Shown here in pieces: positions 84-26,229 of a DNA stretch of 64,000 nt. The notes beneath the pieces were generated by a model. That model had not been told where the DNA came from. It ran no database searches and saw only the letters and a program-made list of their open reading frames with translations. Source of the DNA: Candidatus Gastranaerophilales bacterium (GTDB lineage: Bacteria; Cyanobacteriota; Vampirovibrionia; Gastranaerophilales; Gastranaerophilaceae); the NCBI GenBank assembly GCA_944325175.1, contig CALUYZ010000001.1:1-64000 (forward strand). The letters are read 5' to 3'. Within the stretch, counting starts at the first letter, position 1. Each line of letters begins with the position of its first letter. A program made the position numbers and the translations under genes.

Positions 84-253
84 TGCACCAATTTGAGCAA
101 ATTTGATGCATGGGGTTAAAAGTTTTGTTGGTATAGGGTTTTTGACATGTGGAAAACAAAAATATTAAAATTTGCTGCTCTTGAATTAATGTGGAAATGG
201 TGATATATTGAGAAAAAAGGATGAAATGCACCAAGATTGCTCATTTTGGTGCA
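84..253 (+). promoter_or_regulatory. Invertible promoter segment 1, 170 bp, facing away from the off-window gene
   Basis: Two 27-bp arms, 84-110 and 227-253, are inverted repeats of each other (22 of 27 positions agree). Each arm starts TGCACCAA or its equivalent and ends TTGRTGCA; the shared centre of this pair is TGAGCAA. The interior carries TTGAAT (181-186), a 17-bp spacer and TATATT (204-209) reading rightwards. The right arm is followed by eight T, so it also looks like an intrinsic terminator. Homologous segments lie at 22785-22955 and 24226-24396. Confidence 0.75.
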
Positions 254-20455: not shown

Positions 20456-21724
20456 ATGGCACTTAAAAATTTTTTATTTACATCTGAATCTGTAACTGAA
20501 GGCCACCCTGATAAAGTATGTGACCAAATTTCAGACGCAATTTTGGATGTATTTTTAACAAAAGACCCTACAAGCCGCGTTGCAGCTGAAACAACCGCAA
20601 CAACAGGTATGGTTTTAGTTTCAGGTGAAATTTCTTCATCTTGCTATGTTGATATTCCATCCGTTGTAAGAGAAACTATTAAAAGAATCGGTTACAAAGG
20701 CGAAGAAGGCGGCGGCTTTGATTATAAAACCTGCGCTGTTTTAACAAGCATAGATGAACAATCAACAGATATTGCAGGCGGTGTTAATAAAGCGCTTGAA
20801 ACAAGAAACGATGTAAGCTCAACTTCAAAAACCGAAACCGTAAATATTGGAGCCGGCGATCAAGGCATTATGTTTGGTTACGCTTGTGATGAAACAAAAG
20901 AATTTATGCCTCTTCCAATTTCACTTGCTCATAGGTTAGCTTACAGATTAGCAGAAGTTAGAAAAGAAAAACTTGTTAACTACCTAAGACCCGACGGCAA
21001 AACCCAAGTAACCGTTGAATATGAAAACGGCGAACCAAAAAGAATTGATACAATCGTTATTTCAACTCAACACGACCCTGAAATAAACGGCGAATCTGAC
21101 AACCAAAAAATTCAAGCCATTATTAAAGAAGATATGATGAAATATGTGATTGATGAAGTATTTAAAGATGAAAAAATTAAACCTGATTCAACCACAAAAT
21201 ATTATATCAATCCTTCAGGAAGGTTTGTAATTGGCGGCCCGCAAGGTGACGCAGGTTTAACAGGCAGAAAAATCATCGTTGATACTTATGGCGGCTACGC
21301 TCGTCATGGTGGCGGTGCATTTTCAGGCAAAGACCCAACGAAAGTGGACAGATCTGCAGCATACGCTGCAAGGTGGGTTGCAAAAAATATTGTTGCAGCA
21401 GGCCTTGCAAAACAATGCGAAATCGAACTTGCTTATGCAATCGGTTTAGCAGAACCTGTTTCTGTTCTTGTTGATACTTTTGGCACAGGCAAAATCGATG
21501 ATGAAGAATTAGCAAAAATTGTTAAATCTCATTTCGACCTAAGACCCGCAGCCATTATCAAACAATTTGAACTCCGTGAACTTCCGTCTAAATTTAACGG
21601 CAAATTCTACCAAAAATTGGCAGCATACGGCCATATGGGAAGGTCTGATTTCTATGTTCCTTGGGAAGAAGTTCAAATGGCAGACAAATTAAAAGAAGCT
21701 GCCAAACAATTTGCAGCTGTCTAA
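20456..21724 (+). CDS. metK: S-adenosylmethionine synthetase
   Basis: Makes S-adenosylmethionine from methionine and ATP. Opening [20 protein letters not shown], the [12 protein letters not shown] loop, and [19 protein letters not shown] with [18 protein letters not shown] are the standard signatures. The 422 residues are slightly longer than the usual 380-400. AAGGAGAG precedes the start. No SAM riboswitch was recognised in the upstream 140 bp. Confidence 0.97.
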
Positions 21725-21741
21725 CATATAAAAACCATAAA

Positions 21742-21769
21742 AATAGGGGCTTATAACCCCTATTTTTTT
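21742..21769 (+). terminator. Intrinsic terminator of metK
   Basis: AATAGGGG, loop CTTATAA, CCCCTATT and a run of T, 18 bases after the stop. Confidence 0.88.
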
Positions 21770-21804
21770 ATCCGATATTAAAAACCTTTCTAATGAAATA
21801 ACAT

Positions 21805-22761
21805 TTATCTTTTGATGCAACGAACAGAATTTGAAGCCGAACGAACATCATAGTATCTATAGCCGGTAGTAAAACTTTGATACCAAGCAAGCCCTGAAGC
21901 ACCTGATGATATAACCGAACTTGACCAAAAAGTGCCAGCTATTCCAAGAAGAGGTTCATTAACAAATAGTGACGCAAGCTCGTCCCTGTTAGGAAGTCTA
22001 AAATCTTCTCCTATGCTTTTGCAAGCTGCTGCTGCATCAACTGCATCGGCTGTATCTGAATATTGCGGTACTTTCCCATAATTATATATGTATGGTACAG
22101 GTGCCACAACGACAGGATTTTTATCATAAAAAGCGGTAATAAATCCAACATCTTTACCAACTTGATTGGGTCCTTCTTTACCATTTAAGTCGTATAAGAA
22201 ATTGACACACATTTTATCTTGCACAAAATGATAGCTCGATGAGTCTGAAGCGCAACGAGGATTATAAAACACAGCCACCGATTCCCCATTCACCGTTTCA
22301 AATGCTGCCGCCTTCGTATCAACCATGCTTCCGTCTTCAACTATCTCGTTATCAATCAATAGTTTTTCATTCAACTCGCTTATTTTTGTTGGAAAATCAA
22401 TTTCAGATTTCCCGTTTATTGTTGTAATTTTATTTGGCACCCCGCAAGCAGAAAGCTTATCCGCCCCACAAACGTTATTTATTTTGTAAACCTTAGAAAG
22501 TGCATCCAAAATAAAACTTTCAGCTGCCGTATCTTCTGTTGCCGTTCCTTCTTCATCGGTTTCAAATGTTCCATACCCACCCAACGTATTCATCTGCCCA
22601 ATCGCTTGCGCCATTCTGGCATGCAACGCCTTCTTCTGTGCATCCCAAGCTTTTTCGTTAACATTAACCAATAAACTCGGCAACGTAATCGCCGCCACAA
22701 TTCCAATAATCGCCAAAGTAATTAACACCTCAGCTAAAGTAAAACCTCTAAACTTTTTCAT
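21805..22761 (-). CDS. Type IV pseudopilin with lectin-fold (DUF1566-like) C-terminal domain, gene A
   Basis: 318 residues. The prepilin motif RGFTLAEVLITLAIIGIVAA predicts cleavage between G6 and F7 with the invariant E at +5, followed by the conserved NEKAWDAQKKALHARMAQAI helix. The C-terminal 80 residues (RLPNRDELASLF, FWSSSVI, AWYQSF, SVRC) match the DUF1566/Lcl type of C-type-lectin-like domain. The protein is probably a tip or minor pilin displayed on the surface. Its promoter lies in the adjacent invertible segment (22785-22955), here facing the gene, so it is predicted ON. GAAAGGAT lies about ten bases before the ATG. A paralogue lies directly upstream (23126-24097). Confidence 0.85.
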   Translation of the reverse strand: MKKFRGFTLAEVLITLAIIGIVAAITLPSLLVNVNEKAWDAQKKALHARMAQAIGQMNTLGGYGTFETDEEGTATEDTAAESFILDALSKVYKINNVCGADKLSACGVPNKITTINGKSEIDFPTKISELNEKLLIDNEIVEDGSMVDTKAAAFETVNGESVAVFYNPRCASDSSSYHFVQDKMCVNFLYDLNGKEGPNQVGKDVGFITAFYDKNPVVVAPVPYIYNYGKVPQYSDTADAVDAAAACKSIGEDFRLPNRDELASLFVNEPLLGIAGTFWSSSVISSGASGLAWYQSFTTGYRYYDVRSASNSVRCIKR

Positions 22762-22784
22762 ATCATTCTATCCTTTCAACTTTT

Positions 22785-22955
22785 TGCACCAATCTGTTTA
22801 AGTTTGGTGCATTTTAGGTCTTTTTATTAATATAGCATTGTTTTGGATTTTGTTCAAGGTTGGGAAAAGGGGCGGATGAACTTTTTAAGGGGTTAAAAAG
22901 TATTGTTATTATTAGATTTTCAATGGGTTGCAACAAACTTAAACATTTTGGTGCA
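22785..22955 (-). promoter_or_regulatory. Invertible promoter segment 2, 171 bp, in the ON orientation
   Basis: Arms at 22785-22811 and 22929-22955 are inverted repeats (24 of 27), sharing the centre TGTTTAA. On the minus strand TTGAAC (22852-22857), a 17-bp spacer and TATATT (22829-22834) point at gene A. Predicted transcription start is near 22822, giving a leader of about 60 bases that includes the proximal arm. The interior aligns with that of 24226-24396 only after reverse-complementing. Confidence 0.8.
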
Positions 22956-22982
22956 TTTTTTATTATCAAATTCCCTCATAAA

Positions 22983-23006
22983 GTAGGTTGGGCTTTCAGC
23001 CCAACA
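22983..23006. repeat. Short palindromic repeat, copy 2
   Basis: GTAGGTTGGG, CTTTCAG, CCCAACA; a hairpin with stem GTTGGGCT/AGCCCAAC. It is an inverted relative of 353-377. Confidence 0.6.
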
Positions 23007-23125
23007 GCATCACTGTTTTTTAAAGCATCAAAAATAAAAAAGCGCCACTTAAAAAAGTGACGCCAAAGATAAAATAATAATGTTGAAAAGATTATCACAT
23101 TTTAGCAAAATGCTAAAATGTCAAT

Positions 23126-24097
23126 TTATTTCCTTAGACAGCGCACAGAGTATGCTGTAGAGCGGGCACTACGGTAACGGTGACCATTATTGAAGCCCTG
23201 ATACCAAGCTAACCCAGAAGCGCCAAGCGAAATAGCCGAGCTCGACCAATAGGGGCTAGTGCTTTCACCTAGGTTAATAAGAGGTGCATTGACAAAAAAC
23301 GAAGATAATTCATCTTTATCGGGAAGCCTTAGGTCTTCTCCCATAGTTTTGCAAGCTGTTGGCGCATCAGTTGCTTCTTTTGTTTCTGTATATTGTGGTA
23401 CTGTTGATGTGTAATCTGAACTATATGGAGTTGGTGCTACAACAACCGGGTTTTTGTTGTAAAAGGCTGTGATGAAGCCAATATCTTTACCAACTTGATT
23501 GGGTCCTTCTTCACCATTTAGGTCGTAAATAAAGTTAGCACACATTTTATTTTGAACATAATGATTAGCTGTTGTATCTGAACTGCACATTGGGTTGTAG
23601 AATACTGCTATTGATTCGCCATTCACTGTTTCAAATGCGGCTGCTTTTGTGTCAACTATATCACCGTCTTCGCCTTCATAGTGCACTCCGTTTAATAGCT
23701 TTGAATTTAATTCGCTCATTTTGGTTGGAAAATTTATTTCGGATGCGGCATTTAGTGTTGTGATTTTACTTGGTATGCCGCAAGATGAAAGTTTATCAGG
23801 TCCGCAAACGTTGTTTATTTTATAAACCTTTGATAGTGCATCTAAAATAAAGCTTTCAGCGGCGGTGTCTGTGGTTGCGGTTCCTTCATCATCTTCAGTA
23901 TAGGTTCCATAACCGCCTAGGGTATTCATCTGCCCAATAGCTTGTGCCAGTCTTGCATGGAGAGCTTTTTTCTGCGCATCCCATGCTTTTTCATTAACGT
24001 TTACAAGTAAGCTTGGTAAAGTAATAGCTGCCACAATCCCTATGATTGCTAAAGTAATTAATATTTCAGCCAAAGTAAACCCTTTTTTCTTTTTCAT
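23126..24097 (-). CDS. Type IV pseudopilin with lectin-fold (DUF1566-like) C-terminal domain, gene B
   Basis: 323-residue paralogue of gene A; the first 60 mature residues are nearly identical (KKGFTLAEILITLAIIGIVA, NEKAWDAQKKALHARLAQAI), while the middle and the last 40 residues vary. The C-terminal domain shows RLPDKDELSSFF, YWSSSAI, AWYQGF and SVRC. AGAAAGG precedes the start. The leader between ATG and the invertible segment at 24226 is about 130 bases and is shared with the sequence at 1-83. The promoter in that segment faces away, so gene B is predicted OFF in the cell or population sequenced. Readthrough from 24226 leftwards would need inversion. Confidence 0.85.
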   Translation of the reverse strand: MKKKKGFTLAEILITLAIIGIVAAITLPSLLVNVNEKAWDAQKKALHARLAQAIGQMNTLGGYGTYTEDDEGTATTDTAAESFILDALSKVYKINNVCGPDKLSSCGIPSKITTLNAASEINFPTKMSELNSKLLNGVHYEGEDGDIVDTKAAAFETVNGESIAVFYNPMCSSDTTANHYVQNKMCANFIYDLNGEEGPNQVGKDIGFITAFYNKNPVVVAPTPYSSDYTSTVPQYTETKEATDAPTACKTMGEDLRLPDKDELSSFFVNAPLINLGESTSPYWSSSAISLGASGLAWYQGFNNGHRYRSARSTAYSVRCLRK

Positions 24098-24225
24098 AAA
24101 AACTACCTTTCTTTTGACAGTTAATTTTAATGGGAATAAAAATGAAGTACTGCTTCACATATTTCTATACTACCATTATTTTATCCCGCTTTCAACAGTT
24201 GGTATGAATTCATCCTTTCAACTTT

Positions 24226-24396
24226 TGCACCAATTTGAGTGAATTTGATGCAATGGTTTAAAAATCGCACTATTTATTTGTTTCCGCCATTGAAAATGTT
24301 AAAAATTTTAAACTTTTTCCCTCTTGAACTAATTTAAAAACAATGATATATTGAGAAAAAGAAGATAAATGCATCAAATTCACTCATTTTGGTGCA
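24226..24396 (+). promoter_or_regulatory. Invertible promoter segment 3, 171 bp, OFF with respect to gene B
   Basis: Arms at 24226-24252 and 24370-24396 agree at 25 of 27 positions with shared centre TGAGTGA. TTGAAC (24324-24329), a 17-bp spacer and TATATT (24347-24352) point right, away from gene B and towards the phosphohexomutase gene. The distal arm followed by TTTTTG forms a terminator-like hairpin 18 bases after the -10 box. The flank next to gene B, ATCCTTTCAACTTT, is the same as in the other two segments. Confidence 0.8.
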
Positions 24397-24540
24397 TTTT
24401 TGTTTTGTTAGGTGCGGGTTAAAAATATTAAAAAATGTAAAATATCAAATTATGGCTGGCAAATGCAAATTTTTAGTGGTTTTGTAGATAGAGCCTGAGT
24501 TATGATGGCGTTTCCTATTGATAGTGGGGAAGAGGATATT

Positions 24541-26229
24541 ATGAAAGTTTTATTTAATTCATCGTTTAATGCGCAGAATATTTTTAGAATGAAAAATTTT
24601 GCTATGGGTGCAAATTTTAATGAAAATTTGATACAGCCTATTGAAGACAAGGTTGTGTTTACAGGCAATGTTGAAACTCACAAAATTAATGTCGATAAGG
24701 ATACGGCAGAATTTGTTGCAAACAGCCTTTTGTCTTCAGAATCGGGTTATATGGCAAAATATCCTTCGGATAAGTTTAATGCTGAAGTTGTTGAGCTTTT
24801 AACTTTAGGTGTAGCAAAATATGTTAAAGACAGGGCAAAAGAAGAAAATGAAACGCCAACTGTCGCTATTGGCGGTGATACAAGAAAAGCAACAAGAGAT
24901 ATGTTGCCTATGATGAATGATATTTTTACAAAGCAGGGAGTTGGTGTTTTATATGCCGAAAAGCCAATGCCTACCCCGCTTTTTTCAAAAATGATAAGAG
25001 CTATGTCTTTCCCCGTTTCTGTACTTATGACAGCGGGTGATAGCCCTTGGTCGAATGGCGGATATAATTTATTGGTAGGAGATGAAGCTATAGCGCCTGA
25101 AAGTGTCACAAAAGAAGTGGCAAAAAATATTTTAGAATATGCAAATCAGGGCTATTATACGACAAATAAAAAAGAAGAAGCTTATTCAGATATCGTTTAT
25201 CCCTACAGTTATTATCAAGAAAAAATTGATGAAACGAATTTGATTGACTGGTACGATATTTCTTATGAGGATATTTCAATCATTTATGATTGCATGGAAG
25301 GTGTTGGCGACTATGTTTTTCCGCTTCTTTTAAGAGATAAAGGAATTGAATATACGGTAATTGATGCCGATCGTAAAATTGGCCCTAAACTTACAAGCTC
25401 AAACCTTCATGAGCTTAAAAGGTGGGTAAGAGATGACAAAGCAAGGTTAAAAGTCGGGCTTGCAAATGACGGTGATGCCGGCAGACTTGGCGTGGTTGAT
25501 GAAAAAGGAAATTTTGTATCTCCAAATGATGTTATGTTGCTTGTGACATATCATCTTGTAGACAATAAAGGAAAAACGGGCTCAATCATTAAAAGTCAAG
25601 CAGTATCTTCCGAGCTTGATTTATTTGCAAAAAGCAGGGGGTTAAAGGTTATAGAAACACCTGTTGGTTTTAAATATATTAGTGAAGAAATTTCAAAAGA
25701 GAGAAAAGAAGAGAAGGATGTTTTAATTGCAGGAGATGAAACAGGCGGTTTGACTGTTTGCAATCAAATACCCGAAAAAGACGGTATTATTGCTAATTTG
25801 CTGATTATAGATTTAATAGCAAAAGAAAAAATGCCTTTATCGGATATACTAGAAAAAGTGAAAAGCTCTTTAGGTGTTGAATTCAGAACTTATGACTTTA
25901 GTAAAAAGTTAGATAATGCAAAGCAAGAAGCGATTATGAGAAAAGTCAAAGATATATATTCTGCTGCGCTATCAGGTAATACAAAGTTTGGCGATTTTGA
26001 AATTGATGTTGAAAAAACCCGTGCCAATATGGATGCAATGGAGCATTGTAAAAAAGGCGGTGACGGTGTCAAATTGTTTATGACGGACGGTTCATCGATT
26101 TTGGTAAGAAAATCAGGCACAGAACCAAAAATTGATGCATATATTGAAACCTGTAATAAAGATGCAGACGTTGCAGAACAAAATCTGTCTGAACTAAAAG
26201 CAAAACTGGTTGATATTTTTGATATTTAA
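24541..26229 (+). CDS. Phosphohexomutase-family protein with altered active-site residues
   Basis: 562 residues of the phosphoglucomutase/phosphomannomutase superfamily. The sugar loop GDETGG and phosphate loop VRKSGTEPK (near the C-terminus) are good. The catalytic loop, normally TASHNP or TASHLP with a phosphoserine, reads TAGDSP, so Gly replaces that Ser. The metal loop, normally DGDGDR, reads DGDAGR, losing the third Asp. It may be a mutase with a shifted serine, or a non-catalytic homologue. AAGAGGA is six bases before the chosen ATG; a longer frame from 24502 lacks a site. A rightward promoter at 24324-24352 could read into it in the present orientation. Confidence 0.75.
   Translation: MKVLFNSSFNAQNIFRMKNFAMGANFNENLIQPIEDKVVFTGNVETHKINVDKDTAEFVANSLLSSESGYMAKYPSDKFNAEVVELLTLGVAKYVKDRAKEENETPTVAIGGDTRKATRDMLPMMNDIFTKQGVGVLYAEKPMPTPLFSKMIRAMSFPVSVLMTAGDSPWSNGGYNLLVGDEAIAPESVTKEVAKNILEYANQGYYTTNKKEEAYSDIVYPYSYYQEKIDETNLIDWYDISYEDISIIYDCMEGVGDYVFPLLLRDKGIEYTVIDADRKIGPKLTSSNLHELKRWVRDDKARLKVGLANDGDAGRLGVVDEKGNFVSPNDVMLLVTYHLVDNKGKTGSIIKSQAVSSELDLFAKSRGLKVIETPVGFKYISEEISKERKEEKDVLIAGDETGGLTVCNQIPEKDGIIANLLIIDLIAKEKMPLSDILEKVKSSLGVEFRTYDFSKKLDNAKQEAIMRKVKDIYSAALSGNTKFGDFEIDVEKTRANMDAMEHCKKGGDGVKLFMTDGSSILVRKSGTEPKIDAYIETCNKDADVAEQNLSELKAKLVDIFDI

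Follow-up and report, generated by a model that had tools for sequence, protein, structure and literature searches.

A probable invertible promoter in the ON orientation, one of more than 70 homologous elements associated with prepilin-like genes in a gut bacterial genome

The fimS switch of Escherichia coli type 1 fimbriae, on which FimB and FimE act, is a system with one switch per operon, 9-bp repeats and adjacent recombinase genes. In Bacteroides fragilis, multiple invertible capsule promoters (about eight operons) depend on one global invertase (PMC12632263), and inverton-rich gut genomes carry up to 181 invertons, as in Mitsuokella multacida, with about half of invertons overlapping genes and the groups being mixed (PMC11892184). 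Retroelements are known that diversify the tip pilins of Bacteroides (PMC12632263) or that have many variable repeats per template, DUF1566 being the commonest domain in retroelement targets (PMC6642488). The literature already covers invertible promoters, invertases shared between them, genomes with high inverton counts and retroelements that target pilins. In a literature search with subscription papers largely outside its range, neither an array in which more than 70 homologous promoter switches serve a single gene family nor invertible promoters on retroelement targets were found described.

The locus analysed here lies in the window, a stretch of 64,000 nt that corresponds to bases 1-64000 of contig C1 in a draft genome of 52 contigs (2.02 Mb, 89% complete), a fragmented MAG in which contig ends are frequent near the element repeats. 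The features of the window are listed below, where OFF and ON denote an interior promoter that points away from or at the adjacent gene, respectively.

84-253, plus strand: another OFF element, the third in the window, with core GAGCAA; the gene it belongs to would fall past the contig end
21805-22761, minus strand: gene A, encoding a 318-aa prepilin-like protein with an N_methyl motif and an Lcl_C-like C-terminus below the cut-off
21805-21930, minus strand: 3' end of gene A, counterpart of the template variable region, differing from it at 16/32 template adenines and 33/94 other bases
22772-22777, minus strand: likely ribosome-binding sequence GAAAGG, read from the sequence, between the proximal arm and the ATG
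22785-22811, plus strand: proximal 27-bp arm on the gene side, core GTTTAA; outer half proximal-type, inner half distal-type
22812-22928, minus strand: 117-bp putatively invertible interior in the ON orientation, 96% identical to OFF copies only once inverted
22829-22834, minus strand: -10 box TATATT, pointing at gene A
22852-22857, minus strand: -35 box TTGAAC of the window element
22929-22955, plus strand: distal 27-bp arm, core GTTTAA on the minus strand; outer half distal-type, inner half proximal-type
22956-22961, plus strand: T run 3' of the distal arm, forming with it a terminator-like stop for an OFF-state promoter
23126-24097, minus strand: gene B, encoding a 323-aa paralogue of gene A (74% identity)
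24226-24396, plus strand: element of gene B, OFF, core GAGTGA, with TTGAAC at 24324-24329 and TATATT at 24347-24352 on the plus strand

The initial annotation had described 27-nt inverted arms with a 117-nt gap at 22785-22955, enclosing a promoter (TTGAAC-17 bp-TATATT) that faces gene A, and both features were confirmed, the arms being 89% complementary and the promoter lying on the minus strand, with its -10 box starting 71 nt upstream of the ATG. Its comparison with the element of gene B also held, as the interior matches 24226-24396 solely as the reverse complement (22785-22858 vs. 24323-24396, 76%) and cctttcaactt, the flank on the side of the gene, runs the same way in the two elements. 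The arms of the gene B element are 93% complementary, with a spacing equal to that of the window element, and its orientation is the genome-wide default (OFF). The window element has the layout of an inverton, with inverted repeats that flank a promoter-bearing segment. Each arm is individually near-palindromic (TGCACCAA...TTTGGTGCA) and, therefore, arm direction is set by the 6-bp core and the diagnostic positions described below, not by the ends. A search of 21500-24700 against Rfam gave no match.

When the whole genome was scanned with the arm pattern TGCANCAA-N9..12-TTTGNTGCA, 105 sites were detected on the plus strand and 68 on the minus strand, palindromic arm copies being counted on both, compared to none for a reversed-pattern control, so the arm repeat is not a product of chance. 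All the sites found with a stricter version of the pattern were inside prepilin-like gene clusters. Intact elements number 72, with an arm start-to-start spacing of 142-145 bp, to which five damaged or truncated elements and one armless relic are added, and nearly all of them are directly upstream of a prepilin-like gene, mostly of the family of gene A, of which 103 members were read in the stretches around elements. An intact element is present just upstream of 63 of these 103 genes (61 OFF, 2 ON) and of three of the 16 members of a second prepilin class of ~250 aa, at a distance from the start codon that is mostly 20-30 or 120-140 bp. The remaining 40 family genes have no intact element, and several of the element-less genes show a promoter-like sequence at around -98 that faces the gene. 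Some elements (24098-24225 and L141-L144) are 120-700 bp from the start codon and show a second ATCCTTTCA-like ribosome-binding flank, a copy that looks like the block transfer of an element plus its flank. A search of viral contigs gave no match.

The interior promoter was found on one strand in 72/72 intact interiors and on the other strand in none (0/72), as TTGAA[TC] followed by TATATT, TATAGT or TATTGT, the two boxes being separated by 17 bp in 70 copies and by 19 bp in two. It points away from the gene in 70/72 elements and at the gene in only two, the window copy at 22785 and the copy at C38:7634; a separate whole-genome pattern scan gave 66 OFF and 2 ON. In the OFF copies the two arms can be told apart by diagnostic letters, as positions 9-10 are TT or TC in 68/70 proximal arms and AA in all distal arms, and position 23 is A or T in 62/70 proximal arms and G in 67/70 distal arms. 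The two ON copies have, on each side, the letters at positions 9-10 that belong there, but those at position 23 have changed sides, which places the breakpoint between positions 10 and 23, around the core. Outer half-arms are retained by side, and inner half-arms and interior are exchanged. After an in-silico flip at the core, the closest OFF copy was 98% instead of 60% identical for the C38 copy and 96% instead of 56% identical for the window copy, and flipping improved none of the 70 OFF copies in a sampled comparison.

The two ON copies did not group in a tree whose inner-branch support is modest, and two separate inversions are the simplest reading of them. That of the C38 copy is recent, as it shows only 3 differences in 171 positions from an OFF copy. 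Both orientations are represented among paralogous elements, compared between loci rather than at a single one, and are related by exchange within the repeats. The proposal of the initial annotation that the window element is an invertible promoter in the ON state is backed by the 70 paralogous elements with the opposite interior, by a swap of inner but not outer half-arms, as expected for conservative recombination within the core, and by the nearest relatives of the two ON elements, which are different OFF elements. Judged from sequence, 22785-22955 is very probably an invertible promoter under recombinase control, present here in the ON orientation and belonging to a set of more than 70 putative switches.

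Positions 13-16 of the arms differ among elements yet agree between the two arms of one element. The 6-bp core is identical within the pair in 70 of the 72 elements, when 10 were expected and the maximum in 10,000 permutations was 23, and the damaged copy at L018:14721 carries an extra base in both arms. This matching would result from arm-to-arm recombination that needs identical spacers, and cores that are matched but varied constitute a natural library for the spacer specificity of tyrosine recombinases. A role for different cores in the insulation of neighbouring elements was considered and discarded: neighbours sharing the full core numbered 2 vs. 3.8 expected (P = 0.23, not significant), and the alternation of GT-type and GA-type core classes between neighbours (6 same-class vs. 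16 expected, P = 5e-5) is also explicable by duplication of two-gene units.

Regarding the enzyme, the genome contains three resolvase matches and eight Phage_integrase matches, the latter including two XerC/D-like proteins and four minimal enzymes of ~180 aa. The gene at C7:292-843 encodes a minimal tyrosine recombinase of 183 aa. Among 288 genomes of the family, the four best for this C7 type were this genome (G000), G008 (89%), G004 (67%) and G269 (66%). An arm-pattern match of any kind was present in 38 genomes, which include all four of these. The C7-type gene of G004 and G269 is ~1.2 kb from an arm, with a neuB-type gene in between, and these two cases count as one association because the loci look orthologous. 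Co-occurrence with the arms and this one conserved neighbourhood make C7:292-843 the best candidate for the invertase, as yet unproven. It is not beside any element in this genome, and no C7-type recombinase was found in G003 (85% complete), which has arms. With respect to FimB and FimE, only the size and the general family fit, as its scores against the models NF007370 and NF007371 (36.6 and 40.8 bits) fall far below the subfamily cut-offs (221 and 222), and the match to most of the enteric FimB/E-type models is weak. Several other recombinases of the C7 type adjoin inverted repeats with a gap of 107-143 bp, in some cases with arms resembling TGCACC/TGCAAC.

Two further arrangements were observed around such enzymes. 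In G004 and G269 (L145, L173), the arm is upstream of the neuB-type gene, followed by the C7-type recombinase, an order that could correspond to a self-controlling switch of a sialic-acid-like pathway gene. In many genera of the family, minimal recombinases of ~180 aa adjoin repeats spaced 107-143 bp, each with its own arm sequence (L158, L178, L182, L184, L185, L192), possibly representing many undescribed switches.

A real switch operated by a different enzyme, either XerC/D, another of the ~180-aa recombinases (C37, C6, C50) or one absent from this draft assembly, is somewhat unlikely, although it is the most serious of the alternatives. The eight Phage_integrase and three resolvase matches and the 89% completeness of the genome leave room for it, and the gene of the XerD-like enzyme abuts an element, ending ~15 bp away. 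However, XerC/D orthologues were present in 17/17 relatives searched, mostly without arms, on which ground the XerD-like enzyme was rejected as the invertase, and so was the C37-type recombinase, of which G008 has a copy with 97% identity and arm-less relatives have related forms. In contrast, the C7 type alone tracks the arms and adjoins one in G004 and G269, again as a single association.

The putative transcriptional output of each orientation was deduced from the arms. The distal arm has a mean folding energy of -11.0 kcal/mol, with 6.6 T in the next 8 nt, compared to -5.6 kcal/mol and 1.9 T in 8 nt for the proximal arm. In the element of gene A it is the proximal arm that is the more stable (-10.9, vs. 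-3.6 for the distal arm), in keeping with an exchange of half-arms, although the proximal side still lacks a T run. We infer from these values that the OFF state would lead to termination at the distal arm and the ON state to read-through into the gene.

Relatives of gene A were also detected elsewhere in the genus. The sister species G002 has 47 of them, and those with upstream sequence typically show a TTGAAA plus TAAAAT-like promoter facing the gene with no such arms, which supports the interior promoter being read as the gene's own. The 3' ends of the G002 genes (L100-L119) look variable at set positions, and contigs often stop at the gene start. Elements of the same layout are present in G003 and G008, two genomes of the same genus, several of them before a class of ~245 aa, and 10/10 of those read are OFF. 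The exact promoter-arm junction pattern was absent from 28 relatives, and a scan with the neighbouring phosphoglucomutase revealed no relative with the window locus, the two closest named relatives by this enzyme (44-45%) being gut MAGs (horse faeces; RUG14844). In other genera (g34), 26-bp versions of the motif are mostly single and, like terminators, close to gene ends.

As ON is found in just 2/72 elements and all 10 of the G003 and G008 elements read are OFF, the default orientation might itself serve some purpose. Taken further, inversions would be rare evolutionary accidents, the default orientation would be the functional one (e.g. as the source of a short, terminated RNA) and neither ON copy would belong to a working switch. 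The single orientation common to 70/72 elements here and to 10/10 in G003 and G008 speaks for this reading, but such a strong OFF bias is also expected of a rarely used repertoire. Moreover, identical cores in 70/72 pairs need repeated exchange or selection for spacer identity, the 3 differences in 171 between the C38 copy and an OFF copy point to a recent inversion, and the default orientation meets a terminator-like arm, whereas in G002 a similar promoter faces the gene. Such inversion by accident is improbable.

It is still less likely, and indeed very doubtful, that the arms pair to work as attenuators or as a long hairpin, in RNA or in DNA, with the matching cores reflecting pairing instead of recombination. 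Complementary arms and a terminator-like distal arm are compatible with this and a long hairpin would favour matching arms too, but it would not limit variation to the core, as a stem would tolerate compensating changes throughout, and the two copies with a reversed interior and exchanged half-arms are left unexplained. Finally, MITE-like insertion in either orientation is scarcely credible despite the large number of dispersed copies whose terminal inverted repeats do not vary in length, since a reversed insertion would have taken the outer half-arms along, whereas both ON copies keep their side-specific outer letters, and all copies share flanks and the kind of site upstream of one gene family.

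The genes behind the elements form a large family, with about a hundred paralogues of gene A, mostly 65-76% identical, that occupy close to 5% of the genome. The N-terminal motif for prepilin cleavage and methylation (PF07963) scored above its cut-off in A and B and had a match in 25/25 members checked, and profile searches matched type IV pilins of the PDB, mainly along the N-terminus. The C-terminal domain Lcl_C (PF07603, formerly DUF1566), the candidate here for the CLec-type fold of retroelement targets, was below its cut-off in A and B and gave E<1e-3 in 21/25 members. The AlphaFold model of A was unusable (pLDDT 32). All of the 97 family proteins aligned are distinct, and their variation peaks in the last ~25 residues, where variable sites occur at set positions and are rich in N, S, T, G, D, Y and A.

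A complete diversity-generating retroelement was located inside a prepilin cluster, at C2:120955-122819 (L018:9956-11820), with an accessory protein bAvd (PF22296, 52.5 bits, cut-off 40), a template repeat and a reverse transcriptase in opposite orientation. The reverse transcriptase (L018:10618-11820; RVT_1, 60 bits) contains the motifs IGNLTSQ and YVDD, the former of which satisfies the motif [IVL]GxxxSQ of retroelement reverse transcriptases. The 143-bp template repeat matches the 3' ends of genes of the prepilin-like family. The closest gene on the downstream side departs from the template at six positions, 6/6 of them adenines, and in the seven closest genes 37% of the template A differ vs. 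6.5% of the C, 2.3% of the G and 1.4% of the T. This adenine bias is weak over all 99 genes, A included, so most variable ends, that of A among them, are either old or not derived from the C2 template. The prepilin-like genes look like targets of the C2 retroelement. Four more reverse-transcriptase matches were found in the genome (L193, L195, L196, L197), without an adjoining template for the prepilin-like family.

In the preferred reading, that of an invertible promoter acted on by a recombinase, two 27-bp arms, each formed by two inverted half-sites around a core of ~6 bp, would flank a 117-bp segment with one sigma70-type promoter, and a tyrosine recombinase (C7:292-843 being the best candidate) would recombine the two cores to invert the segment. 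In the OFF state, the promoter would fire into the distal arm, whose hairpin and T run would end transcription; in the ON state, transcription would pass the proximal arm, which has no T run, and enter the gene. The retroelement elsewhere in the genome would have rewritten 3' ends in at least part of the family, and promoter flipping would pick few members from a silent, hypermutable repertoire. The anatomy, the copy number, the two orientations, the exchange of half-arms, the matching of cores, the retroelement parts and the adenine bias in the closest genes are read directly from the sequence. Current inversion, its enzyme, termination, expression and this pick-few use of the repertoire are all parts of the model that we infer from the DNA.

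Tentatively, these components could be joined in a two-tier system, a possibility with slightly less for it than against it, in which the retroelement would hypermutate the C-terminal ends of about 100 mostly silent prepilin genes and one recombinase would draw members by promoter flips, with one or few variants displayed per cell. Differing cores would in this system limit recombination between neighbouring units, a point on which the full-core comparison is a weak test (P = 0.23). The model predicts a strong OFF bias, a single recombinase and clonal differences in the pilin variant displayed. If both tiers work, ~5% of a 2-Mb gut genome would be given over to a library of surface proteins subject to rewriting as well as switching, much like the archives that certain pathogens keep for antigen variation.

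Compared to fimS, the system shares a short, putatively invertible promoter segment, inverted repeats, a candidate recombinase of the minimal tyrosine type of ~200 aa and a predicted control of pilus genes, but its homologous switches number more than 70, their arms measure 27 bp, and its candidate enzyme is encoded elsewhere and scores far below the FimB/FimE-type cut-offs. As with the capsule promoters of B. fragilis, there are many invertible promoters that serve surface structures in the gut, with a shared invertase proposed here, whereas the more than 70 switches would act on single genes of one paralogous family, are nearly all OFF and have cores that vary between switches. The large number of invertons per genome is common to other inverton-rich gut genomes, in contrast to which the switches are homologous, intergenic and tied to one gene family. 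Finally, bAvd, the template repeat, the reverse transcriptase, the adenine-biased 3' ends and the putative DUF1566/Lcl_C-like target domain resemble the pilin-diversifying and multi-repeat retroelements, for which the literature search gave no report of targets that each lie behind an invertible promoter.
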